A stretch of DNA of 64,000 nucleotides, taken from assembly GCF_007860105.1 (NCBI RefSeq), contig NZ_SJPU01000001.1, forward strand, positions 1,128,090 to 1,192,089, read 5' to 3'. Source of the stretch: Allorhodopirellula heiligendammensis. Lineage in GTDB: Bacteria; Planctomycetota; Planctomycetia; Pirellulales; Pirellulaceae. The notes beneath the pieces were generated by a model, which saw only the letters and a list, made by a program, of their open reading frames with translations, was not told the origin of the DNA and made no database searches. This document shows, one piece after another, positions 1-64,000 of the stretch. The number at the start of each line of letters is the position of its first letter. The stretch's first letter is position 1. The position numbers were made by a program, and so were the translations under genes.

Positions 1-559
1 AGTACAGCGAGTCGCCGAGACAGACGCCGTAGTTCGTCCGACCCTGTGCTGGCAGCCCCTCACCGGGGTCGCTGGGACATCGGTACGAGGGAATGCTGGT
101 TAACCAGGGTGTGTACTCACCTTGGACGGTGTGGTCCGCCAGCAGCATCCAGGGACTCGGCCCCAAGGGTGCATAAAGACTTCCGGACGCAATTCGATAG
201 GGCGTGCTGATCTGTTGCCAAAGTGCCTGTTGCTCGATAAAGGGTGTGATGCCAACCAACGCACTGAGCTGATTCAGATTGGATCCTCCACCACTGGCGG
301 TCGGTGTGTAAGTCGAGTCCCAACTGGCCCCAGGGTTTCGTTTGGTTCCACCGGCCTGCGCGGGGAGTTGGTCAAAGGCGGAATGGTAGTTTTGGAACGC
401 AAGTCCGATCTGCTTGAAGTTATTGCTGCAACTCATTCGTCGGGCCGCTTCACGGGCAGCTTGTACTGCGGGAAGCAGTAAGCCCACCAGCACACCAATG
501 ATGGCGATCACCACTAGCAACTCGACCAGAGTAAAACCGCGATTTCGTCGGACGTTCAT
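1..559 (-). CDS. DUF1559 domain protein with prepilin-type leader (3' end beyond window)
   Basis: The first 186 residues are visible; the gene runs off the left edge. It starts [20 protein letters not shown]: a short basic leader, cleavage expected between G8 and F9, glutamate at +5, then a hydrophobic helix, as in type IV prepilins and type II pseudopilins. The helix runs into [18 protein letters not shown], the hallmark of the large planctomycete DUF1559 (SBP_bac_10) family, and later residues include CPSDPGEG, also usual in the family. The function of DUF1559 proteins is unknown; surface assembly through a pilin-like helix is inference. A small lipoprotein lies directly upstream on the same strand, a frequent neighbour of these genes. 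Confidence 0.93.
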
Positions 560-53314: not shown

Positions 53315-54745
53315 TTGCATTTCGTCACAGGGCGACTTGCTGAGTTCGCGCTGCGCAGTTCCGCTGCAGGAGCTGCACAACGGCATGGATTTCATCACAG
53401 CGTTCAGGTCACGCCGATTACGGTGGCGGCGTTGATCACCCCGAAATGGCTGACGCGGCATCTGAAAGTGCCAACAGGTGCCACCCATGTGGTTTTGCCG
53501 GGATTCTGCGAAGCGGTCCTCGATGATCCGATGGACGCTGCCTCACCGGAGAGGAGTTGGCGAATGCGATTGGCGGAAATCGCCGGACTCAGCCCCGACC
53601 GAATTGTGTGTGGGCCGAAGGATTGCCGCGATATCGACGCTTGGCTCGGCGGGAAAACGCGATCGGTAGATCTGTCGGAATACTCCATCGAAATCATCGC
53701 TGAAATCAATCATGCGCCACGTCTGAGTGTGAATGAAGTCGTTCGCATGGCTGCAGAATTTCGTCGTCACGGAGCCGATCGAATTGATGTCGGCTGCGAC
53801 CCGGGACGACCGTGTTCGAGAATCGGTGATTATGTAGCGGCACTGATCGACGCCGGCCACCGCGTCAGCATCGACACGTTCGATGAGCAGGAAACTCGCA
53901 CTGCGATCTCCGCAGGGGCGTCATTGGTACTCTCGGTCAACTCGTCCAACCGCCGGGCCGCCGCGGATTGGGGCTGCGAAGTCGTCGCGATTCCCGATAT
54001 TCTCGATGACCTGTCCACGCTCGACGCCACCATCGATTTCCTGGAAAAGCACCAAGTCCCCGTTCGGCTCGATCCGATTCTCGAACCGATTGGCTCTGGG
54101 TTCGGGCAGTCCCTGATGCGCTATGCTCACACCCGCCAGCGCTATCCTGATCATCAGATGATGATGGGTATTGGAAACCTCACTGAGCTGACGGATGTTG
54201 ATTCGGCGGGTGTCAATCTGCTGTTGCTCGCCCTCTGCGAGGAATGGCAAATCAGGAGTGTCCTAACCACGCAAGTGATCAATTGGGCAAGAACATCGAT
54301 CCAGGAATGTGATATCGCTCGACGTCTTGTACACCACAGTATCAACGAGGGGACGCCTCCGAAAAACCTATCCGACCAACTCGTCATGTTGCGGGACGCC
54401 AAATTGCGTCCGTATGCAGACGAGGCCATCGACGCGCTCGCCTCCGAAATTCGCGACAACAACTATCGCATTCTTGCCCAGGATGGCGAAATCCACATCA
54501 TCAGTGCGGGGGTCCATCTCCGTGGCAATGAGCCCTTTGCGATGATGAGTGAACTATTGACGTTACCCCAATCCGATAATGTGGATGTCTCGCACGCGTT
54601 TTATCTTGGCTTCGAATTGGCGAAAGCTAAACTCGCTATCCAACTGGGAAAACAATACGAGCAAGATCAAGCCCTGAATTGGGGACAGTTAACCGTCGCC
54701 GAAGCACGTCATCGAATTCCGCGAAAATCTCGCCATCGAAAGTAA
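53315..54745 (+). CDS. dihydropteroate-synthase-like protein (DUF6513)
   Basis: A 476-residue protein. The best start is the TTG at 53315, giving HFVTGRLAEFALR at the very N terminus where the family begins; no ATG or GTG is available. ITVAALITPKWLTRHL and VVLPGF follow, then a pterin-binding TIM barrel: IIAEINHAPRL, GADRIDVGCDPG, VSIDTF and MMGIGNLTELTDVDSAG. Related proteins accompany tetrahydromethanopterin C1 genes in methylotrophs and planctomycetes, where they are thought to make the pterin-arylamine bond. No other H4MPT gene is in the window, so that role is inference. Confidence 0.82.
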   Translation: MHFVTGRLAEFALRSSAAGAAQRHGFHHSVQVTPITVAALITPKWLTRHLKVPTGATHVVLPGFCEAVLDDPMDAASPERSWRMRLAEIAGLSPDRIVCGPKDCRDIDAWLGGKTRSVDLSEYSIEIIAEINHAPRLSVNEVVRMAAEFRRHGADRIDVGCDPGRPCSRIGDYVAALIDAGHRVSIDTFDEQETRTAISAGASLVLSVNSSNRRAAADWGCEVVAIPDILDDLSTLDATIDFLEKHQVPVRLDPILEPIGSGFGQSLMRYAHTRQRYPDHQMMMGIGNLTELTDVDSAGVNLLLLALCEEWQIRSVLTTQVINWARTSIQECDIARRLVHHSINEGTPPKNLSDQLVMLRDAKLRPYADEAIDALASEIRDNNYRILAQDGEIHIISAGVHLRGNEPFAMMSELLTLPQSDNVDVSHAFYLGFELAKAKLAIQLGKQYEQDQALNWGQLTVAEARHRIPRKSRHRK

Positions 54746-54865: not shown

Positions 54866-55303
54866 TCAGGCATTTAACTCTTTGGTTAGCTTCGCCAGTT
54901 TGGCAAGCGTCTTTGGGCTGACGTGGTGCTCGATTCCCTCGGCGTCGTGCGCAGCTGTGGCCGCATCGACGCCGATCGCCAAGAGAAAGTCTTGGACAAT
55001 CTGATGCCTTTTTCGAGACTCCACCGCCAGTCGTTTTCCCTTCGCTGTCAGCCTGATGGGACGATAAGGCTCCGTCTGCAGTAGGTCCTCCCCGACCAAT
55101 CGCGACACAATTCGCGTGACCGTCACATGGCTAACGCCGAAGAAGGCCGCGAGATCAACGACGCGGCATTCGTCTTTGTGGGACAAAATGTCGTCTACTG
55201 CTTCGACATAGTCCTCAGCCTTCTCGCTGGAGTGATCGCGACGGGTACGCTCATGGGACTGAGGACCAGGGATTTGCGATAACTTTTTTCTGCTGGTGCT
55301 CAT
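54866..55303 (-). CDS. mntR: MntR-type metal-dependent transcriptional repressor (DtxR family)
   Basis: A 145-residue regulator from the ATG at 55303. The winged helix covers about 27-90 and the metal/dimer domain 91-145; there is no SH3 domain, as in MntR. All six metal ligands of B. subtilis MntR can be matched: D31 and E34 in EDYVE, H100 in RKRHQIV, and E122, E125 and H126 in AEGIEHH. It faces a metal ABC operon across a 366-bp gap and probably represses it when manganese is plentiful. I see no obvious palindromic operator in that gap. Confidence 0.92.
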   Translation of the reverse strand: MSTSRKKLSQIPGPQSHERTRRDHSSEKAEDYVEAVDDILSHKDECRVVDLAAFFGVSHVTVTRIVSRLVGEDLLQTEPYRPIRLTAKGKRLAVESRKRHQIVQDFLLAIGVDAATAAHDAEGIEHHVSPKTLAKLAKLTKELNA

Positions 55304-55669
55304 ACAGGCGGAATCCGAAGGTTTTATAGACGACGGGTGCCGTACCGGCCCGCAGCAATCGTGCACAATGTACCGGACGCTGTGAATGAGGTAAACGCGA
55401 TATCTGGTGGCGTTGCAGCCGCATCACGTAACAACAAGGCTTCGCCGCCGCAGACGAGCTGGAGGTGACAGCCGCCTCCAAACGCGAGGATGAATACATG
55501 TCGCCGCAGTGGACATGGATCGCTAAGGGGCGTGCTGTGACGGCTCTAGACAGGATTTGTAGCAATGGCTACTTTAATGAGCGACTCTTTCCATGTGAAA
55601 GTTGGAGCAAGAGTGCTCGTGTTGTTCCGTACCCGCGCCGAACCAGGGTCTTTGGGAGTCCATTGCCAG
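55304..55669. promoter_or_regulatory. divergent control region between mntR and the metal ABC operon
   Basis: 366 bases that should hold the promoters of both mntR and the metal transporter operon. One small inverted repeat, GTAGC-AATG-GCTAC at 55559-55572, is visible. I found neither a classical MntR box nor a recognisable manganese riboswitch. Open frames here lack signal peptides or domains. Confidence 0.45.
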
Positions 55670-56686
55670 ATGCAGCGACCTCTTTTTATCGTCTTTTTTA
55701 TGTCAATCTGGGTATTGGCGGCGACTGTATCTGGCTGCATCCACTCCAGTGACCCGGACGCGAGTTCACAGGCAAAACCTGACGCGGTCACGGTCGATCC
55801 CACTGAGCCTATCGCTGTGACGACGACGGTGGGAATGGTTGCTGAGTTGGTGCGGAGCGTTGGGGGGGACCGGGTTGAGGTCACACAGATCATGGGTGCA
55901 GGCGTGGACCCGCACCTCTATAAAGCGACCCGCGACGATGTGTTAGCGATGATGAACGCTGATGTGATCTTTTATTCGGGCTTGATGCTTGAAGGAAAGA
56001 TGACCGACACTTTGGTTAAAATGGCTCGCGGCAAACCGGTCGTTGGGATCACTGAGGTTCTCGATGAGACATCCCTGCTCGAGCCAGCAGGTCTCGCGGG
56101 CCATTACGATCCCCATGTCTGGATGGACGTATTGGCCTGGTCGAAGTGCGTCGATGTGATCGCTGATCAACTCTCTGTGATCGATCCGCCCTCGGAGTCG
56201 GGCTACCGCGCCCGAGCCGAAATGCTTCGCGAGGAGCTTGCGACGCTGGACGAATACGGCAAACGGGTGATCGCGACGATCCCAGCAGACAGCCGAATTC
56301 TGGTTACCTCTCACGACGCTTTTAATTACTTCGGGCGTGCCTATGGACTCGAAGTGATGGGTGTGCAGGGGATCTCAACGGAGTCCGAAGCAGGCCTGCA
56401 GCGAATCAATGAACTGGTTGACCTTTTGGTTGAGAAGAAAGTGAAATCAGTGTTTGTCGAGAGTAGCGTGCCACGGAAAAATATTGACTCGCTCGTCGAG
56501 GGCACGAGATCCCGCGGCCACGAAATTAGCGTGGGCGATCAAGAACTTTATAGCGACGCGATGGGAAAACCGGGCACGTATGAAGGGACATATATTGGTA
56601 TGCTAGATCACAATCTCACTGTCGTCGCTCGCGGTTTGGGCGGTGAAGCGCCGGAGCATGGCTTTCAAGGCAAACTCAATCAATGA
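55670..56686 (+). CDS. metal ABC transporter substrate-binding lipoprotein (cluster 9)
   Basis: A 338-residue lipoprotein from the ATG at 55670 (FMSIWVLAATVSGC). ITQIMGAGVDPHLYKAT-like run (GAGVDPHLYKATRDD), GHYDPHVWMD, ILVTSHDAFNYFGRAYGLE and the late VFVESSVPRKNIDSL define the ZnuA/PsaA/MntC family; the two His plus later Glu and Asp bind the ion. The long His-rich loop of zinc-specific ZnuA is absent, so manganese or iron is favoured. First gene of the operon; its TGA overlaps the ATPase ATG as ATGA at 56683-56686. Confidence 0.92.
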   Translation: MQRPLFIVFFMSIWVLAATVSGCIHSSDPDASSQAKPDAVTVDPTEPIAVTTTVGMVAELVRSVGGDRVEVTQIMGAGVDPHLYKATRDDVLAMMNADVIFYSGLMLEGKMTDTLVKMARGKPVVGITEVLDETSLLEPAGLAGHYDPHVWMDVLAWSKCVDVIADQLSVIDPPSESGYRARAEMLREELATLDEYGKRVIATIPADSRILVTSHDAFNYFGRAYGLEVMGVQGISTESEAGLQRINELVDLLVEKKVKSVFVESSVPRKNIDSLVEGTRSRGHEISVGDQELYSDAMGKPGTYEGTYIGMLDHNLTVVARGLGGEAPEHGFQGKLNQ

Positions 56687-57489
56687 CCCCAGCAATCGAG
56701 GTGTCCCCGTCAGCAAGCCAAGCGGAATCAATCGCATTATCGGTTGACGACCTCACCGTGGCCTATCATCGCAAGCCCGTGATTTGGGATGTCGCGATTG
56801 ATCTGCCGGCGGGCGCATTGATTGGCGTTGTGGGGCCCAATGGAGCTGGGAAAAGTACCCTGCTCAAGGCGATCATGAATCTCGTGCCCCGGGCATCGGG
56901 GCGTGTCGAGGTTTTCGGCAAGCCATACCGCGTCAATCGTCACCGGGTCGGCTACGTTCCGCAGCGCGAAAGCGTTGATTGGGACTTCCCCGTCGATGCT
57001 CTCGATGTTGTGACAATGGGCCTGTACAGCAAAATCGGTTGGTGCCTGCCGGTCCGCAAGCGACATCGCGAAGCAGGATTGGAAGCGCTCCGCCGGGTGG
57101 GAATTGCAGATCTCGCCCACCGCCAAATCAGCCAGCTTTCCGGGGGCCAGCAGCAGCGGACGTTCTTGGCGCGGGCTCTTGTGCAGGACGCGGACCTGTA
57201 CCTAATGGATGAGCCCTTCGCGGCGGTCGATGCATCCACCGAGAAGGCCATCGTCGAGCTGTTGCGTGAGCTCAAGTCGCGTGGCAAAACCGTTGTGGTA
57301 ATTCATCATGACCTGCAGACGGTGCCGGAGTACTTTGACTACGCGGTGCTCCTGAATATGCGTGTGGTCGCCCACGGTCCGATCGAATCAGTGTTCACTT
57401 CGGAGAACTTGCAAAAGACGTATGGCGGTCGGTTGACGCTACTCGATGAAGTCAGCGAAGCGATGCGTCGCCGGGAGCGTACGCTGTGA
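56683..57489 (+). CDS. metal ABC transporter ATP-binding protein
   Basis: A 268-residue ATPase. Walker A GPNGAGKSTLLKAIM, Q-loop VGYVPQRESVDWDFP (a run typical of manganese/zinc importers), signature LSGGQQQRTFLARAL, Walker B LYLMDEPFAAVD, and switch His in VVVIHHDLQTVPEYF. It energises the two permeases encoded next. The end overlaps the GTG of the first permease (GTGA, 57486-57489). Confidence 0.95.
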   Translation: MTPAIEVSPSASQAESIALSVDDLTVAYHRKPVIWDVAIDLPAGALIGVVGPNGAGKSTLLKAIMNLVPRASGRVEVFGKPYRVNRHRVGYVPQRESVDWDFPVDALDVVTMGLYSKIGWCLPVRKRHREAGLEALRRVGIADLAHRQISQLSGGQQQRTFLARALVQDADLYLMDEPFAAVDASTEKAIVELLRELKSRGKTVVVIHHDLQTVPEYFDYAVLLNMRVVAHGPIESVFTSENLQKTYGGRLTLLDEVSEAMRRRERTL

Positions 57490-59000
57490 GTCTCGACACC
57501 GTGGAGATCTCTTCGCTCCATCACAATCTCGTCATGCAACGCATTGGCGGTGCGCGTCGCTGGTTCCTGCTCCTGATCCTGATTTCTTTTCCCTCCGTCG
57601 CATTTGCTGCATCGCCCTCAGGTTCGATTACCGACCGAAGCGTGAGTTGGCCGACCATCGATCAGTGGCAGCGGGTTCTTTTTTTACAGGACTACAATAC
57701 CCGAGTCGTGCTCTTCGGAGTCGCAGTGCTGGGGGCAGCCGCAGGTTTGGTGGGCAGTTTTACGCTGCTGCGAAAGCGAGCGTTGCTGGCGGACGCCTTG
57801 GCCCACGCGAGTTTGCCAGGCATCGCATTGGCGTTCATGGTGGCCGGCGGGTTGGGCATGAATGCGAAGTCCGTGCCGGTTCTGCTTTCAGGCGCAACGG
57901 TCTCGGGATTGCTAGGCGTAGGTTTGGTGCTGCTCGTTCGCTCGCAAACCAAATTAAAGGAAGATGCCGGATTGGGGATTGCGCTGAGTGTATTCTTTGG
58001 CGCTGGGATCGCGTTGCTCGGCGTCGTTCAGCAGATGGAGACCGGCCGCGCTGCCGGATTGGAAGGCTTTATTTACGGCAAAACAGCGTCGATGAATGCC
58101 AACGATGCCCGACTGATCGCATTGGCGTCGTGCGTGGCAATCATCGGATGTCTGCTGCTGTTCAAAGAGTTCAAGTTGCTGTGCTTTGACGAGAATTTTG
58201 CCGGGTCACGGGGGATGCCTGTCTTGGCACTGGACCTGAGCCTGATGTCACTCGTCGTGCTCGTGACCATCGTAGGCTTGCAAGCGGTGGGATTGATCCT
58301 CGTCGTCGCCTTATTCGTCACTCCCGCTGCCGCGGCCAGATTTTGGACCGAAAGGCTATGGGTTGTCGCGTGGCTCTCCGCGTTTCTCGGCTCCCTTGGC
58401 GGCTTGGTCGGTGGCGCTGCGAGCGCTTTAATGCCGCGACTTCCCTCGGGCGCTATGATTGTCTTAGCGTCAACGGCGTTGTTCACTTTCAGTATGTTCT
58501 TCGGATCGGCGCGCGGTGTACTGATTCGCTGGCTGAGGCGTGCCCATGTCAATCGGCGGATTCGCAGGCAGCATTTGCTCCGTGGTCTCTACGAGATACT
58601 CGAGTTGGAGGATCCGCACACCACCCCGCACAATCATCCCGCTGTGCCAATCGAGCAGCTGTTGGAGATACGCAGTTGGTCGCGAACTCAATTACAACGA
58701 ACACTGGCTTCGGCAGAGCGGGAACAGTTGGTCAATCGACAGGCCGATTCCATCCGTCTCACGCGGGCTGGTTATGTCCAGGCAGCACGATTGACGCGGG
58801 ACCATCGATTGTGGGAACTCTACTTGATTACCCACGCCGATACCGCTCCCAGCCGTGTGGACCGCGACGCCGATCGCATCGAGCATGTGTTGGAGCCCGA
58901 ACTTATCGACGAACTCGAACACCTCCTCCAGCAACAACCTGTCCGCATTCCGGTGCCAGCGAATCCGCATGGAGTGATTCCCAGTGGTGAACAATCATGA
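57486..59000 (+). CDS. metal ABC permease fused to a DtxR-type metal-sensing domain (first copy)
   Basis: A 504-residue protein; GTG start overlapping the ATPase stop, or ATG at 57534. Residues about 20-350 are an ABC-3 permease with eight or nine helices (LLADALAHASLPGIAL, GAAAGLVGSFTLLRKRA). Residues about 370-504 form a winged helix plus DtxR metal-binding domain: RLTRAGYVQAARLTRDHRLWE, RDADRIEHVLEPELIDELEH and PHGVIP. H440, D463, E466 and H467 match MntR ligands H77, E99, E102 and H103; the D8 and E11 positions appear to be His and Arg. Feedback gating by bound metal is inferred. Confidence 0.92.
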   Translation: MSLDTVEISSLHHNLVMQRIGGARRWFLLLILISFPSVAFAASPSGSITDRSVSWPTIDQWQRVLFLQDYNTRVVLFGVAVLGAAAGLVGSFTLLRKRALLADALAHASLPGIALAFMVAGGLGMNAKSVPVLLSGATVSGLLGVGLVLLVRSQTKLKEDAGLGIALSVFFGAGIALLGVVQQMETGRAAGLEGFIYGKTASMNANDARLIALASCVAIIGCLLLFKEFKLLCFDENFAGSRGMPVLALDLSLMSLVVLVTIVGLQAVGLILVVALFVTPAAAARFWTERLWVVAWLSAFLGSLGGLVGGAASALMPRLPSGAMIVLASTALFTFSMFFGSARGVLIRWLRRAHVNRRIRRQHLLRGLYEILELEDPHTTPHNHPAVPIEQLLEIRSWSRTQLQRTLASAEREQLVNRQADSIRLTRAGYVQAARLTRDHRLWELYLITHADTAPSRVDRDADRIEHVLEPELIDELEHLLQQQPVRIPVPANPHGVIPSGEQS

Positions 59001-60349
59001 CCTGGAACTGGCAGCTGGATGGATGGATCGTACTCGCCGGGGTGTTATGCGCTGTCGCCTCCGCTCTCGTGGGGAATTTTTTAGTACTCCGCCGACTGAG
59101 TATGTTAGGTGACGCGGTCTCACACGCGGTTCTGCCTGGTTTGGCAGTCGCCTTTTTTATCAGCAACAGCCGTAGCAGTGTACCGATGTTTGTCGGGGCG
59201 GTAGTCGTTGGCGTCTTGACGGCTTTGTTCACCGAGTGGATCCGCGGTGTGGGCAAGGTCGATGAGAGCGCATCGATGGGCGTGGTCTTCACGTCCCTGT
59301 TCGCAGCTGGGTTGATCATGATTGTGCAAGCCGCTGACAAGGTCGATCTGGACGCTGGATGTGTGCTCTACGGGGCGATCGAACTTACTCCGCTCGATAC
59401 GGTAACCACATTCGGTTTTACCCTGCCACGCGCCGTGCTGGTGTTGGGTGTCGTGACTTTGGTGAACTTGGTGTTCGTGCTCGTGTTTTTCAAGGAGCTC
59501 AAGTTAACTGCCTTTGATCCGTCCCTGGCGACATCAATGGGCTTTTCGGCGGGATTCATGCACTATGCATTGATGGTGCTGGTTGCAGTAACCGCCGTGG
59601 CCAGTTTTGAGAGCGTAGGGAACGTTCTGGTGGTGGCAATGTTTATCGTGCCACCGGCAACGGCCTACCTCCTGACCGATCGACTGGGTTTGATGATCGT
59701 GCTTTCGACGGTCATTGCTGCAATGGGCGCTGTCAGCGGACATGTCGCGGCCGTGATCGTACCGACTTGGTTTGGCTTCCAAAGCACCACGACAGCAGGG
59801 ATGATGGCTGTGATGGTGGGCGTGTTTTTCATGGTTGCTATCTTCTTCGCACCTCGCCATGGCATGGTGGTTAAGCTCGCAAGGCGTCAGATTCTGTCAC
59901 TAAGTATTTTGGCGGACGATATTGTGGCGTTTCTCTATCGCCACCGCGAACGCTTGCATGAGAGCCGTAAAACGCCCGGGGCGGAGTATTCGATACGCAG
60001 GGAAATGATTGCCGAGGAGCTCCTTGCCTCCCGTTCTGCCGTAGCCATCGCGATGTCTCGACTCTACCGCCAAGGACATCTTCGCTGGGCTGATGGCGGG
60101 TGCGAACTCACTGAAGCGGGAACGCAGCGGGCCCGAGACATCGTTCGCTCGCACAGGCTATGGGAGCAATACCTGGTCAATGAAGCTGACATGGACGCCA
60201 CAAAGATTCATGACAAAGCCGAGCAATTCGAGCATTTCACTGACCGCCCGATGCAGCAGAATCTCGACACCCAGACGCGACATCCGGAGATCGATCCTCA
60301 TGGGCGGACCATTCCCCGTCCTGAACATGACCCACGGCAGGAAAGCTGA
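58997..60349 (+). CDS. metal ABC permease fused to a DtxR-type metal-sensing domain (second copy)
   Basis: A 450-residue protein that overlaps the first permease by 4 bp (ATGA). Residues 1-295 are the membrane part (MLGDAVSHAVLPGLAVAFF, FKELKLTAFDPSLATSMGFS). About 300-450 are DtxR-like: IAEELLASRSAVAIAMSRLY as the helix-turn-helix, LTEAGTQRARDIVRSHRLWEQYL, DKAEQFEH and DPHGRTIP. H386, E409, E412 and H413 match MntR ligands; of the N-terminal pair one Asp (ADDIV) seems kept, with Ala at the Glu position. The two permeases probably pair as a heterodimer, placing two sensor domains together. Confidence 0.92.
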   Translation: MTWNWQLDGWIVLAGVLCAVASALVGNFLVLRRLSMLGDAVSHAVLPGLAVAFFISNSRSSVPMFVGAVVVGVLTALFTEWIRGVGKVDESASMGVVFTSLFAAGLIMIVQAADKVDLDAGCVLYGAIELTPLDTVTTFGFTLPRAVLVLGVVTLVNLVFVLVFFKELKLTAFDPSLATSMGFSAGFMHYALMVLVAVTAVASFESVGNVLVVAMFIVPPATAYLLTDRLGLMIVLSTVIAAMGAVSGHVAAVIVPTWFGFQSTTTAGMMAVMVGVFFMVAIFFAPRHGMVVKLARRQILSLSILADDIVAFLYRHRERLHESRKTPGAEYSIRREMIAEELLASRSAVAIAMSRLYRQGHLRWADGGCELTEAGTQRARDIVRSHRLWEQYLVNEADMDATKIHDKAEQFEHFTDRPMQQNLDTQTRHPEIDPHGRTIPRPEHDPRQES

Positions 60350-60844: not shown

Positions 60845-63800
60845 TTATGGGTTCGCTTGCTTTTTCAGCCGATTGAGTTTCGGACGGCCACCCTCGTTGA
60901 CTTCCATGATAAAGCGAGCGAGATCGAGAAACTGGTCACGGTTTTCTAACGTCGCCGCCAAGCCAATGGGCATTGTCGAGACATCCGATTTAATCACCTC
61001 TTCGACATCATCCATCGGAATCACGCATGGTTTGCCTTGGTCAGCGGCGATGCTGAGTGTCAGGCTGTCCTCAGATTCTTCGACCAGGAACCCAGACAGG
61101 ACCGCGCCATCGACGGTGATCACGTTGACGGTCTGATAGCCTGATAGAATTTTTGCAGACGGCTTCAGAATCGACTCGATCAGATGCTCATCCGTGGAGT
61201 CCTTGCGCGAAACCGTCAATTCTGGGCCGAGTTGATAGCCGACGCCAACATCGTGGCAGGTGGCACATCCGGTCTGCTCCCAGTAGAAGAGTTTGGCGCC
61301 CCGAACGGCATCACCACGCTGGCGAGCGTCGCGCACCAGATCACCGATGGGCTCAGCGATTAAAGCATTTTCAAGCTCCGTATTGGCAACGCTTTCCTCG
61401 CTCATCTCCGGGCGACTTCCCTCGGGAAACGGATGCATCTCGAGGAGTTCTTCAGGGCGATAGAATCTTTGACGGTCCGTCGTCGCCGCGCGAATGCGTT
61501 TTACGTCGTCGGCGGAAACTTCGTCGGCGTCATTGCCCCAACTGGTTCGAACGTAGGTCAGCACGCTGGCGATTTCTTCGTCGTTGAACATGTTCCCAAT
61601 CGCGGTCATCGGCGGTACGCCCATATCCGGTTCGAAAACCTTTCCACGAACGCGAATTTCGCCCCAAATACCATGCAGCGTCAGCTTGATTAACCGATCG
61701 GGATCACCGTTGACCCACTCGCTACCAGCCAGGGGCGGGTAGACTCGCGCGACGCCTTCTCCATTCTCACGATGGCAGGCATAGCACGAGCCTTCTTCGA
61801 AGAACACCTGCTGGCCGAGGCTATACTTTTTCGCGAATCTCTTGTTTTTGAACTTATCGGTTTTGGTCCGGTAGTCCTTCGGTTTCATTGCTCCTTCGAG
61901 TTTGCCCGCCAGCAATTCGCCGTACTCAACCTGAAGGGTATCCGGGTCGACGAACCCTGCTTCGATCGCAGCCTCCACATCTGGTTTGAGCAGCATCATG
62001 GCGCTGTTGAGCGAGTTGCGAATCCAACGATCGGTTTTGTAGGAGGCCACCGTCAGCAGCACCTCTGCGCCAGTCTTCCCGCCGAGCCATGAACCTGCAG
62101 AAAGTGCTTCCAGTCGCACGCGCGGATGCTGGTCCGTCGCCGCGGTCGTCAGGTAGACACTGGGATCGTCGAGTAGATGCAGACAGTGACGGATAACTCG
62201 AACTGCAGCCGCACGGACGCGATGATCTTTGGCCTGCAAGCACTTTTCGAGCAGGTCCGTTGATGGGGCTTGCTGTCCCCAGGTCGCCCACAGGGCTTCC
62301 AAGACCAAACGTTCATCGTCTGCGTTCTCGCTGGCAAATTGAGCCGCAGCGTCGAGCACACTTTGCTTCGGACGGCCACGTAACTCCATGTGCGATCGCG
62401 TACGAGCGTTCACTTCGGGCAACTTCATATTCTCGAACAATTGCGAGATCTCGGCACCTGCCACAGTCGGCGGCTCGACCAGTGGCCGGTCGGAGTGCGT
62501 GATGCGGTAAATCCGTCCGTACTCGGAATTACGAAGGGGGTCCCGAGCACTGTGCTGCATGTGACCGATCAGCGTGTTGTGCCAGTCGATGAAGTAAAGG
62601 CTACCGTCGGGAGCGACTTGCAGGTCACAGGGGCGGAAATTGCCGTCGGATGACTGGATCAGGTCCTGCCGGAACTTCCCTTTGATCTCAGCACCATCTT
62701 CAATCGTCTTGCATTCCTTGATGCCGAGAAATCCGATGGTGTTCGCATACAGATAGTCACCTTGGACTTCATCGGGAAAGTGACTGCTATACAGGAACTC
62801 TGCACCCGAGGTGGGGCGTGTGTGATGTTCGTAATTGAACTTCGAAACCTTCGCAATTTCCTTCGAATGCGGAATCTTGACGGAGTAACCTAACAACCAA
62901 TATTGATCTCCGCCCGAGGCATCGTTGACAAAGGTCTGGCCATACTCATCGTGGGCAACGCCCCACGGATTGTTGACGTCAATCTGCATCACCCGTTCGA
63001 CCTTCCACGAGCTGGGGTCAAACCGCCATACGCCTCCGTCGGTCATGCGTTGGGGCCCCCACGGCGTTTCAACTTGCGAGTGAAGGAAGCGGCCCTCACA
63101 CATATAGATGCCGCTGCCATGGTCGGTATCGAATGCGGAAATGGCATGGTGGGTGTCGTGTGAATCGAAACCATCGAGCAAGTACTCCATCTTGTCTGCG
63201 TGGTCGTCGCCATCGGTGTCTTTGAGCAGCACCAGAAATGGTTCTTGAGACAAATAGACGCCCTCGGGGGCCAGCTCAAATCCAATGGGCATATGCAACC
63301 CATCGGCAAACACGGTTTCCTTGTCCGCCCGGCCATCGCCATCGGTATCCTCATAGATTAGGAGCATATCATTGGGCTTCGAGTCACCCGGCTTGTAGTG
63401 CGGGTAACTTGGCAGTGTCGACACCCACAACCGCCCTTGATTGTCGAACTCCATTTGGGCTGGGTTGCCGAGATTCGGGAACTCTTGTTCTGAGGCGAAC
63501 AGCGAGACTTCATACCCATCGGGCAGCGTGAATTTTTTCAGCGCCTCGGATTCTTCTTTGAGGTAATCGGGGGTGCCATTCTTCGCACTGGGCTGAAAGT
63601 TGGTTTCCACCGATGAGAGCGGTCGAGTCATCGCGTCATCGACCTCAAGTGTTGACGACTTCCCTTGAGCGATGGCCCAAATGTTTTCATCCCGCAACAC
63701 GGTCATTTGCCGAATCTTCTCGATCTCTTCGGGATAATTGAAGTTGCCGTAGGGTGCCCAGCGGCGTCCGTAGGCGTGAACACCGTTGAGCATCCGATAA

Positions 63801-64000
63801 TCATTCCGCCAGAACCACGCCTTGTCTTGAACAGCTTGATACAGCAGGGGGTTGGTATCCGCATCACTGGGGGAAGCCCCAAAGAGTTTCTCCATCAGAA
63901 TCGGAGCGAGCTTTTTGTAGCCTTCCTCGGACAGGTGCACGCCGTTGATGGTCAGCGGCTCATCTGAATTCTCGAACCACTCCAGCGTTGGGGTGAACAG
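60845..64000 (-). CDS. large secreted SGNH / membrane-bound-dehydrogenase propeller / diheme protein (5' end beyond window)
   Basis: The frame is open to the right edge, so the start is missing; 1051 residues are visible. At the edge, NGVHLSEEGYKKLAPIL is the last block of an SGNH hydrolase, with its catalytic His. Then about 500 residues are a sorbosone-dehydrogenase-like propeller (LPDGYEVSLFASEQEF, DTDGDGRADKETVFADGL), followed by HEAT-like repeats, a cytochrome c domain (CYACH at 61773-61787) and a second planctomycete heme-binding domain (CATCH at 61253-61267). Such proteins are thought to oxidise a sugar or alcohol and pass electrons along the hemes. Substrate unknown. Confidence 0.9.
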   Translation of the reverse strand: MFTPTLEWFENSDEPLTINGVHLSEEGYKKLAPILMEKLFGASPSDADTNPLLYQAVQDKAWFWRNDYRMLNGVHAYGRRWAPYGNFNYPEEIEKIRQMTVLRDENIWAIAQGKSSTLEVDDAMTRPLSSVETNFQPSAKNGTPDYLKEESEALKKFTLPDGYEVSLFASEQEFPNLGNPAQMEFDNQGRLWVSTLPSYPHYKPGDSKPNDMLLIYEDTDGDGRADKETVFADGLHMPIGFELAPEGVYLSQEPFLVLLKDTDGDDHADKMEYLLDGFDSHDTHHAISAFDTDHGSGIYMCEGRFLHSQVETPWGPQRMTDGGVWRFDPSSWKVERVMQIDVNNPWGVAHDEYGQTFVNDASGGDQYWLLGYSVKIPHSKEIAKVSKFNYEHHTRPTSGAEFLYSSHFPDEVQGDYLYANTIGFLGIKECKTIEDGAEIKGKFRQDLIQSSDGNFRPCDLQVAPDGSLYFIDWHNTLIGHMQHSARDPLRNSEYGRIYRITHSDRPLVEPPTVAGAEISQLFENMKLPEVNARTRSHMELRGRPKQSVLDAAAQFASENADDERLVLEALWATWGQQAPSTDLLEKCLQAKDHRVRAAAVRVIRHCLHLLDDPSVYLTTAATDQHPRVRLEALSAGSWLGGKTGAEVLLTVASYKTDRWIRNSLNSAMMLLKPDVEAAIEAGFVDPDTLQVEYGELLAGKLEGAMKPKDYRTKTDKFKNKRFAKKYSLGQQVFFEEGSCYACHRENGEGVARVYPPLAGSEWVNGDPDRLIKLTLHGIWGEIRVRGKVFEPDMGVPPMTAIGNMFNDEEIASVLTYVRTSWGNDADEVSADDVKRIRAATTDRQRFYRPEELLEMHPFPEGSRPEMSEESVANTELENALIAEPIGDLVRDARQRGDAVRGAKLFYWEQTGCATCHDVGVGYQLGPELTVSRKDSTDEHLIESILKPSAKILSGYQTVNVITVDGAVLSGFLVEESEDSLTLSIAADQGKPCVIPMDDVEEVIKSDVSTMPIGLAATLENRDQFLDLARFIMEVNEGGRPKLNRLKKQANP

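Follow-up and report, generated by a model that had tools for sequence, protein, structure and literature searches.

Why should both permeases of a metal importer carry the metal-sensing domain of a DtxR-type repressor when a complete MntR is encoded beside them? This question is posed by a locus of Allorhodopirellula heiligendammensis (GCF_007860105.1, NZ_SJPU01000001.1, positions 1,128,090-1,192,089, forward strand; the 64,000 nt analysed are referred to as the window), where an operon encodes a ZnuA/PsaA-type binding protein, an ATPase, permease 1 (P1) and permease 2 (P2), in this order (Table 1). The reading that we favour, with a probability of about one half, is that MntR sets transcription of a Mn/Fe importer and that the attached DtxR-type domains sense metal in place and restrain transport.

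The importer operon and its regulator

Assignment of both permeases to the ABC-3 family (PF00950) is supported by profile scores above cut-off, by agreement of the fold and by the operon context with a ZnuA-type binding protein and an ATPase. The metal-binding/dimerisation domain of DtxR (PF02742) is detected in both (E 4.8e-13 in P1 and 2.6e-20 in P2; cut-off 27 bits) and is encoded in frame behind the membrane domain, and not as a free soluble protein. The sequence-only reading that preceded this work had placed these domains correctly, including the coordinates, reading frames and residue numbers of both permeases, and had suspected that the architecture may already occur in databases, where many homologues indeed contain both Pfam domains. 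The same homologues dismiss an assembly error as the origin of the fusion. The best NCBIfam match of the ATPase is NF011630 (PRK15056, manganese/iron ATPase), whose 230.8 bits stay under the cut-off of 393; no extra domain in this protein of 268 residues appears among the 25 of 30 families listed. A lipoprotein-like signal in the binding protein begins at 55670, as read from the translation, which is the likely start, the one in Table 1 probably being too early.

Table 1. Features of the importer locus, numbered from the first letter of the window
Feature	Position	Strand	Evidence
mntR, separate MntR, divergent from the operon	54866..55366	-	NF008273, PF02742 and PF01325 all over cut-off
Promoter-region TAGC-N4-GCTA box, MntR-like	55560..55571	+	pattern match
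ZnuA/PsaA-type metal-binding lipoprotein	55565..56686	+	PF01297, E 7.3e-73
ABC ATPase, Mn/Fe type	56683..57489	+	PF00005
P1 ABC-3 membrane domain (residues ~70-345)	57693..58520	+	
P1 winged helix (residues 358-425)	58557..58760	+	
P1 DtxR metal-binding domain (residues 426-482)	58761..58931	+	PF02742, 49.4 bits
P2 ABC-3 membrane domain (residues 1-293)	58997..59875	+	
P2 winged helix (residues 301-371)	59897..60109	+	
P2 DtxR metal-binding domain (residues 372-441)	60110..60319	+	PF02742, 72.6 bits

The divergent regulator scores 164.5 bits against NF008273 (cut-off 153), and alignment reveals D and E in helix 1 as well as occupied H, E, E and H positions, in line with the earlier description of a complete MntR facing the operon. 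Its true start may lie at 55303. The genome carries two free PF02742 proteins. Between mntR and the operon lies the only TAGC-N4-GCTA match of the 64 kb window (0.24 expected), a yield of at least one match that is also reached by 19 of 100 shuffled windows. The box resembles what we take to be the E. coli MntR site; a literature search with the letters of the latter found no paper. The arms of the box are shorter than the minimum set for the inverted-repeat search, whose output does not contain it, and a promoter scan gave two weak matches. Among 60 related regions, which were taken from the better search matches so that tallies are not to be read as frequencies, seven carry the box at the start of the operon or of the regulator (L233, L234, L236, L243, L261, L262 and L270, the last one three times), and its perfect form is missing from 53. 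As judged from sequence, the proposal that MntR acts as the putative transcriptional controller of the importer operon is supported.

Metal site and DNA-reading part of the attached domains

The metal-site positions are occupied by H440, E444, D459, D463, E466 and H467 in P1 and by H386, E390, H405, E409, E412 and H413 in P2, which includes the four MntR ligands that had been recognized in each permease before (H440/D463/E466/H467 and H386/E409/E412/H413). Further upstream, H363 of P1 and D308 of P2 occupy the position of DtxR M10 and MntR D8, and each is present in 120 of 120 close homologues; D308 was placed by a VIA alignment to DtxR, and its MntR equivalence comes from a separate sequence alignment. 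Hence, the claim that the N-terminal ligand pair is changed holds for its second residue in both permeases, but not for D308 of P2, which stands at MntR D8. In DtxR, H79, E83 and H98 presumably form the ancillary site, and the corresponding positions are filled by H440/E444/D459 in P1 and H386/E390/H405 in P2. DtxR is therefore a better yardstick than MntR for the attached domains. The ligand set of P2 matches that of free DtxRs, whereas P1 differs by D at positions 98 and 102. At the C-terminus, the PHGxxIP ending reported for both permeases is exact in P2 (PHGRTIP; DPHGxxIP); P1 ends with PHGVIP, and its family retains only PH.

Residues 301..445 of P2 align to DtxR 3..139 in the VIA fold comparison, among the matches listed, and the whole domain superposes as modelled. 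A winged helix is predicted in the models of both permeases, as had been claimed, although the classical N-terminal HTH model PF01325 matches neither permease (to E 0.1) nor the excised domains (to E 1). In the P2 model, a predicted helix (290-323) joins the membrane domain, at its end, to the winged helix without a break. The P1 model is of low confidence across residues 460-482, with pLDDT <50 in the ligand helix at 460-468.

Conservation differs between the two parts of the domains. In the 120 close homologues of each permease the metal ligands are near-invariant, while the recognition helices are more variable than average. For P1, H440 and E444 are kept in 119/120 rows and D459, D463, E466 and H467 in 119/119 ungapped rows; the row gapped at these last four positions is probably P0173, which is devoid of PF02742. 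The P2 ligands are kept in 119 or 120 of 120 homologues. In the broad set, P1 has H at position 10 in 11/28 rows and misses H79 in 5/28. Entropy of the recognition helix is above average in P1 and P2 and below average in free DtxRs, and the chlamydial helices of the broad set drift too. Relative to random columns the drift is moderate (0.05-0.09 for P1, the chlamydial rows and both close-homologue sets; these tests exclude the six degenerate rows L238_u, L239_u, L245_u, L246_u, L268_u and L268_d, which the broad-set conservation tally included). The helices carry mean charges of +3.2 in P1 and +2.2 in P2 as compared to +1.1 in free DtxRs, and the P1 winged helix retains R-S-W-S, with R396 nearly invariant and S397 and W398 invariant. 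Some relatives combine a shortened HTH with a complete metal site; HTH shortening is seen in four P2 domains and in 3/16 chlamydial rows. Conserved ligands, an unconserved recognition helix and shortened HTHs in relatives together lend indirect support to metal sensing by the domains while they are attached. Drift is no proof of lost DNA binding, since the helix of an autoregulator may change in step with its single operator. Proteins of the DtxR/IdeR type differ from the domains described here, which are membrane-attached, have an unconserved recognition helix and are without a PF01325 match; a third (SH3/FeoA) domain of that type is not listed for the window proteins in the Pfam search.

Distribution of the fusions and kinship with chlamydial YtgC

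Fusions do not always come in pairs: among 43 systems that have two permeases and one or two full domains, 14 are fused in both, and an additional set contains further single-fused loci. Nine of 58 systems have a winged-helix-like P2 tail without a metal domain, and the three of these tails compared with Pfam give weak winged-helix or HTH matches, below cut-off; in five of 58 the P1 domain is degenerate (L238, L239, G092, L245 and L268). Neither permease has a domain in L236, which is a closely related unfused pair, and L251; a third case, L269, was tallied as unfused and has its P2 cut by the contig end. In chlamydial loci, the upstream permease alone is fused (16/16), and 14 of the 16 have the same order of binding protein, ATPase and two permeases, the two short contigs L278 and L292 being without the binding protein. 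These rows are MAGs collected via 16S matches, C. trachomatis itself lying outside the sample, and they include G269/L290, which is titled Verrucomicrobiota and was tallied as chlamydial because it is placed inside the chlamydial clade of the membrane-domain tree. A free DtxR or MntR is present in 27 of 28 planctomycete/verrucomicrobial genomes, all selected for carrying a fusion, as opposed to 1 of 20 chlamydial genomes; in 19 of the 20 chlamydial genomes having a fused domain, it is the sole PF02742 protein.

In the membrane-domain tree (108 of 109 rows, one short row omitted), P1 groups with the chlamydial upstream permease with a support of 100/100 (set of 51 rows). Its attached domain likewise groups with the chlamydial one (95/89; set of 39 rows) in the tree of C-terminal domains (107 rows, after omission of those that lack a metal domain and of five with a degenerate P1). 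Free DtxRs, the local MntR among them, form one side of the latter tree (100/93), and thus descent of the attached domains from the local MntR is unsupported. The 48 free-DtxR rows collected were reduced to 38 by removal of duplicates and of L261, L262 and L266, which have misread long frames. The D98/D102 swap of P1 fitted the first set as a marker of a fused P2; it failed in five verrucomicrobial loci (L307-L310 and L320), where it occurs with an unfused P2, and therefore follows the P1 clade rather than the partner. No P1 of the H98/E102 type together with a P2 metal domain was seen among the loci compared.

The architecture thus has a known counterpart in Chlamydia trachomatis YtgCR (CT069 of ytgABCD), an ABC-3 permease followed by a winged helix and a DtxR metal domain, and P1 is likewise the upstream permease of such an operon, with a C-terminal DtxR domain and of the same clade. 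Excerpts of PMC7755916, PMC6504234 and PMC5599777 describe YtgR as cleaved from YtgC and as repressing ytgABCD and trpBA; hence, the statement that no functional test of such a fusion is known does not stand. In its excerpt, PMC7755916 calls the role of the YtgC permease part in iron uptake unclear, and that of the review PMC5599777 relays second-hand, in connection with YtgR, a claim of 11 phyla. YtgR is a cleaved repressor, while the planctomycete domains may stay attached. Chlamydial systems have one fused permease and mostly no free DtxR; the combination found here, i.e. two fused permeases and an upstream MntR with a box, is unusual. No planctomycete fusion and no DtxR domain acting in transinhibition was found in the literature, as judged by titles and abstract openings among the matches listed.

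Possible roles of the attached domains

In the favoured reading, the separate MntR would set transcription of the Mn/Fe ABC importer operon, and the DtxR-type domain at the C-terminus of each permease would remain attached and act in place. At high cytoplasmic Mn(II) or Fe(II) the two domains would bind metal and associate below the transporter; as a pair they may restrain the NBD/TMD cycle and so provide a rapid brake at the protein level, comparable to transinhibition in MetNI and ModBC. The domains would be repressor-derived but freed from the constraint to read DNA. This reading builds on the domain identity, the predicted fold of P2, conserved ligands and a drifting recognition helix, on HTHs that are shortened in some relatives, and on the free DtxR/MntR of nearly all fused planctomycete/verrucomicrobial genomes examined. 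In MetNI and ModABC, a C-terminal domain binds the imported substrate at the dimer interface and restrains the transporter, according to an excerpt of PMC10710835. The regulatory domain of MetNI and ModBC resides on the ATPase, however, and not on the permeases as in the window, which counts against a brake. So do the cleavage and DNA binding by which the best-studied relative, YtgCR, works, recognition helices that surpass free DtxRs in positive charge with R-S-W-S kept in P1, the poorly predicted P1 ligand helix, domains that are not always paired, variation at position 10 and at ligands of P1 in the broad set, and the lack of a perfect box in most related regions. The Mn importer PsaBC (7kyp), with listed chains of 258-290 residues, has no attached domain of this size.

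An option that the sequence-only reading had omitted is release as in Chlamydia, one or both domains being cut off to become soluble metal-dependent repressors beside MntR. The grouping of P1 and its domain with the chlamydial permease, the cleavage of YtgR and the basic recognition helix of P1 speak for it, but a separate MntR with its box at the locus, free regulators in almost all fused planctomycete/verrucomicrobial genomes, the unconserved P2 helix and shortened HTHs in chlamydial rows themselves render it rather unlikely. DNA binding by the intact transporter, which would report metal import to transcription from an operator, could likewise draw on basic recognition helices, and the excerpt of PMC5599777 mentions that full-length YtgC might repress while anchored in the membrane. 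Here, the unconserved P2 helix, the HTH shortened in four P2 domains and a promoter probably served by MntR already make this very unlikely.

The domains might instead leave flux unregulated and serve as metal acceptor, buffer or assembly module, e.g. in ATPase docking, with the winged helix as a protein-docking element. Such a role would suit P2 tails without a metal domain, invariant S397/W398 of P1 where DNA would be read, and the unfused pair L236; we consider it improbable given a sensor-type ligand set with filled ancillary positions, which seemingly exceeds the needs of a transfer site. That the domains are mere vestiges of an old fusion, as degenerate P1 domains and the loci without any domain (L236, L251 and the truncated L269) might indicate, is hardly credible given how little the ligands vary across the 120 rows compared for each permease.

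Extending the brake reading to evolution, we tentatively propose, with some doubt, that PVC bacteria may have turned a metal-dependent repressor into an on-board importer gate, in which a matched DtxR hetero-pair (sites H/H/E/D/D/E/H and D/H/E/H/E/E/H) would stop import at full cytoplasm, DNA control having passed to a separate MntR. Chlamydia YtgR would then be the branch that, after losing free regulators, kept or regained its DNA role by being cut loose. Gating of transport by these domains would mean that a transcription-factor fold had come to brake a metal importer at the protein level, and the permease-repressor of Chlamydia could then be seen as a branch of the same theme. Whether the fusion acts on transport while attached is thereby made testable, possibly in planctomycetes as non-pathogenic hosts, where L236 offers a natural unfused relative as control.

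Operon and genomic setting

The lipoprotein gene, the ATPase gene and the two permease genes share overlaps of a few bases with their neighbours and look like one operon. In the planctomycete host genome (7.18 Mb; completeness 97.6%), a search for the ABC-3 permease domain PF00950 matched solely the upstream permease P1 and the downstream permease P2, and a strong Nramp match elsewhere makes a further divalent-metal importer likely. PF02742, the DtxR metal-binding/dimerisation domain, was found in four proteins, that is P1, P2, the product of the window's mntR and a second MntR-like regulator encoded ~205 kb away. The named close homologues of the fused permeases come from Novipirellula and Allorhodopirellula.

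Coordinates of the operon, its surroundings and related features
Feature	Position	Strand	Remark
DUF6513 and pterin-binding domains	53315-54745		beyond mntR from the operon
mntR	54866-55366		divergent from importer genes
ZnuA-type lipoprotein	55565-56686	+	
ABC ATPase	56683-57489	+	
P1, ABC-3 permease	57486-59000	+	
P1 N-terminus	57486-57692		signal-peptide-like extension, ~60 residues; prediction confidence low in part
P2, ABC-3 permease	58997-60349	+	
Large protein with DUF7133 and cytochrome c domains	60845-63940	-	3' of operon; HEAT match slightly under cut-off
Nramp match, same genome	C1:559694-560746		
Second MntR-like regulator, same genome	L306:4837-5400	-	
Unfused sister operon, window's family	L236:1456-5963		with MntR-like gene and MntR-like box

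The motif TAGC-N4-GCTA (the box), which presumably resembles the E. coli MntR operator, has a single match in the 64-kb window, located in the interval that separates mntR from the operon. The expected number is 0.24, and 19 of 100 shuffled sequences contain one match; as evidence of the control by MntR proposed in the sequence-only reading, this single copy is weak alone. Among 60 related regions (610,714 bases), a raw count gave nine sites in seven regions. Eight of these precede a called start, that of a binding protein, a regulator or an ATPase, by no more than 60 bases; the remaining one, in L261, falls within the 5' end of a called binding-protein ORF, as does the window's. Carriers include the double-fused loci L233, L234, L261 and L262 and the unfused L236; a perfect box was absent from 53 of the 60 regions, including several in which both permeases are fused (for instance L235, L244 and L257-L259), and from the 10 kb read around the second MntR-like gene. 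In the window, the ORF for the binding protein has its first ATG within the box. Since a lipoprotein-like signal begins at 55670, the listed start at 55565 is probably wrong.

Distribution and descent of the fusions

The survey comprised 61 loci, corresponding to 58 systems once three genomes with separated permeases were merged. Both permeases carry a full domain in 14 systems, and in the 16 chlamydial loci only the upstream permease is fused, its partner being unfused. Six systems combine a full upstream domain with a winged-helix-like tail on the partner, seven have a single permease, which is fused and has a longer tail of ~220-250 residues, and seven carry a degenerate domain on one or both permeases. 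The downstream permease only is fused in two (upstream without metal domain), three from Poribacteria have only a winged-helix-like tail, and three are unfused, including L269, which is severed by a contig end. Of 115 genomes sampled from the phylum of a Kiritimatiellae genome, 14 encode a two-permease system whose upstream permease is fused; the 15 loci read from this sample were fused in both permeases (six), upstream only (eight) or in a single permease (one), and the upstream-only fusion L321 has E at the last ligand.

Single permease genes with a DtxR domain and the longer tail (L252-L255, L270-L272, L313) probably encode homodimeric importers; one of two tails tested (L270) gave a weak FeoA match, under cut-off, and a separate DtxR/MntR-like gene lies nearby in L270-L272. 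In three genomes, two fused permeases occupy separate loci (L242/L243, L247/L248, L249/L250), and neither binding protein nor ATPase was found in the stretch read around their P2 genes. Both permeases of L236 stop 17-20 residues past the membrane domain, providing a natural control without either domain.

In a membrane-domain tree (51 rows), the upstream permeases of Planctomycetota, Chlamydiota, Kiritimatiellae and Poribacteria formed one side (support 100/100), and in a C-terminal-domain tree (39 rows) P1 clustered with the chlamydial domains (95/89). From these sequence groupings, P1 is therefore classed as a protein of the type of YtgCR, the chlamydial permease-repressor fusion; the tie to C. 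trachomatis itself rests on gene order and papers. According to a review (PMC5599777), Thompson et al. 2012 found permease-repressor fusions in 11 phyla. Neither paired fusions nor a transport role for the attached domain was found among the open-licence papers listed.

Metal ligands and recognition helix

In DtxR numbering, the ligand sets are H10, H79, E83, D98, D102, E105 and H106 in P1 and D10, H79, E83, H98, E102, E105 and H106 in P2. Among 120 close homologues of each permease, including the window's, at most one row deviates at any ligand position. In the broad set of fused rows, the 23 P2 rows with a metal part have D10, H79 and H98 in 22, E83 in 21, E105 and H106 in all and E102 in 15. 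The 28 P1 rows, degenerate ones counted in, have E105 in 25, H79, E83 and H106 in 23, D98 in 21 and D102 in 16; position 10 is H in 11 of them, N in seven and D in five. All 16 chlamydial rows read N10-H-E-H-E-E-H.

Free DtxR/MntR proteins (38 rows) vary less in the recognition helix than in an average column (1.34 vs 1.77 bits); the helix varies more than average in fused P1 (2.75 vs 2.2), P2 (2.88 vs 2.03), chlamydial (2.55 vs 1.51) and single-permease rows (1.97 vs 1.2). Random seven-column sets reach the variability of the fused helices in 2-6% of draws (degenerate rows out, gaps ignored); for the two sets of close homologues the figures are 6% and 9%. When overall identity is matched, that of the helix is 0.16 in P1 and P2 as compared to 0.27 in free DtxRs. 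The helix takes an intermediate position in the best 120 homologues of a YtgCR-type protein from a chlamydial genome: 108 have S, 111 have Y, and 22% of random column sets are as variable. Such drift is suggestive of lost DNA reading and falls short of proof, since the operator may co-evolve with the helix. Stronger evidence against DNA reading is a shortened spacing from helix 1 to H79: among the 73 fused rows that include a metal domain, seven have a spacing of 47-57, compared with 68-83 in free DtxRs, and six of these seven retain the full ligand set. Nine P2 tails align to the winged helix without a metal domain, and a winged-helix-like tail alone is seen on P2 in L274-L276 (Poribacteria) and in L192, L194-L196 and L198 (Planctomycetia). 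The P1 recognition helix begins with W in 18 of the 27 rows of the broad set and in 11 of the 15 verrucomicrobial ones, and S397 and W398 are invariant in the close P1 rows; the W-bearing face may be read as a docking surface.

Function of the attached domains

Residue conservation suggests that the attached domains are kept as metal sites rather than DNA readers, and on-the-spot metal sensing is the simplest remaining function. With a probability of about 0.5, metal-driven pairing of the domains would stall the ATPase cycle; transinhibition of ABC importers is treated in excerpts of PMC10710835. The main rival, by analogy with Chlamydia, is that the domains are released by cleavage, which we consider unlikely. 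According to excerpts of PMC7755916, PMC6504234 and PMC5599777, YtgR is the C-terminus of YtgCR, set free by cleavage, and with iron represses ytgABCD and trpBA. The charge of the P1 recognition helix (+3.2; P2 +2.2, free DtxR +1.1) would suit DNA binding too. Other repressors are available for a DNA role: of 28 planctomycete/verrucomicrobial genomes with a fusion, 27 (all but G302) encode a free PF02742 protein. Of 26 chlamydial genomes, 20 have the domain, and a free PF02742 protein is present in one of these; the other six lack the domain.
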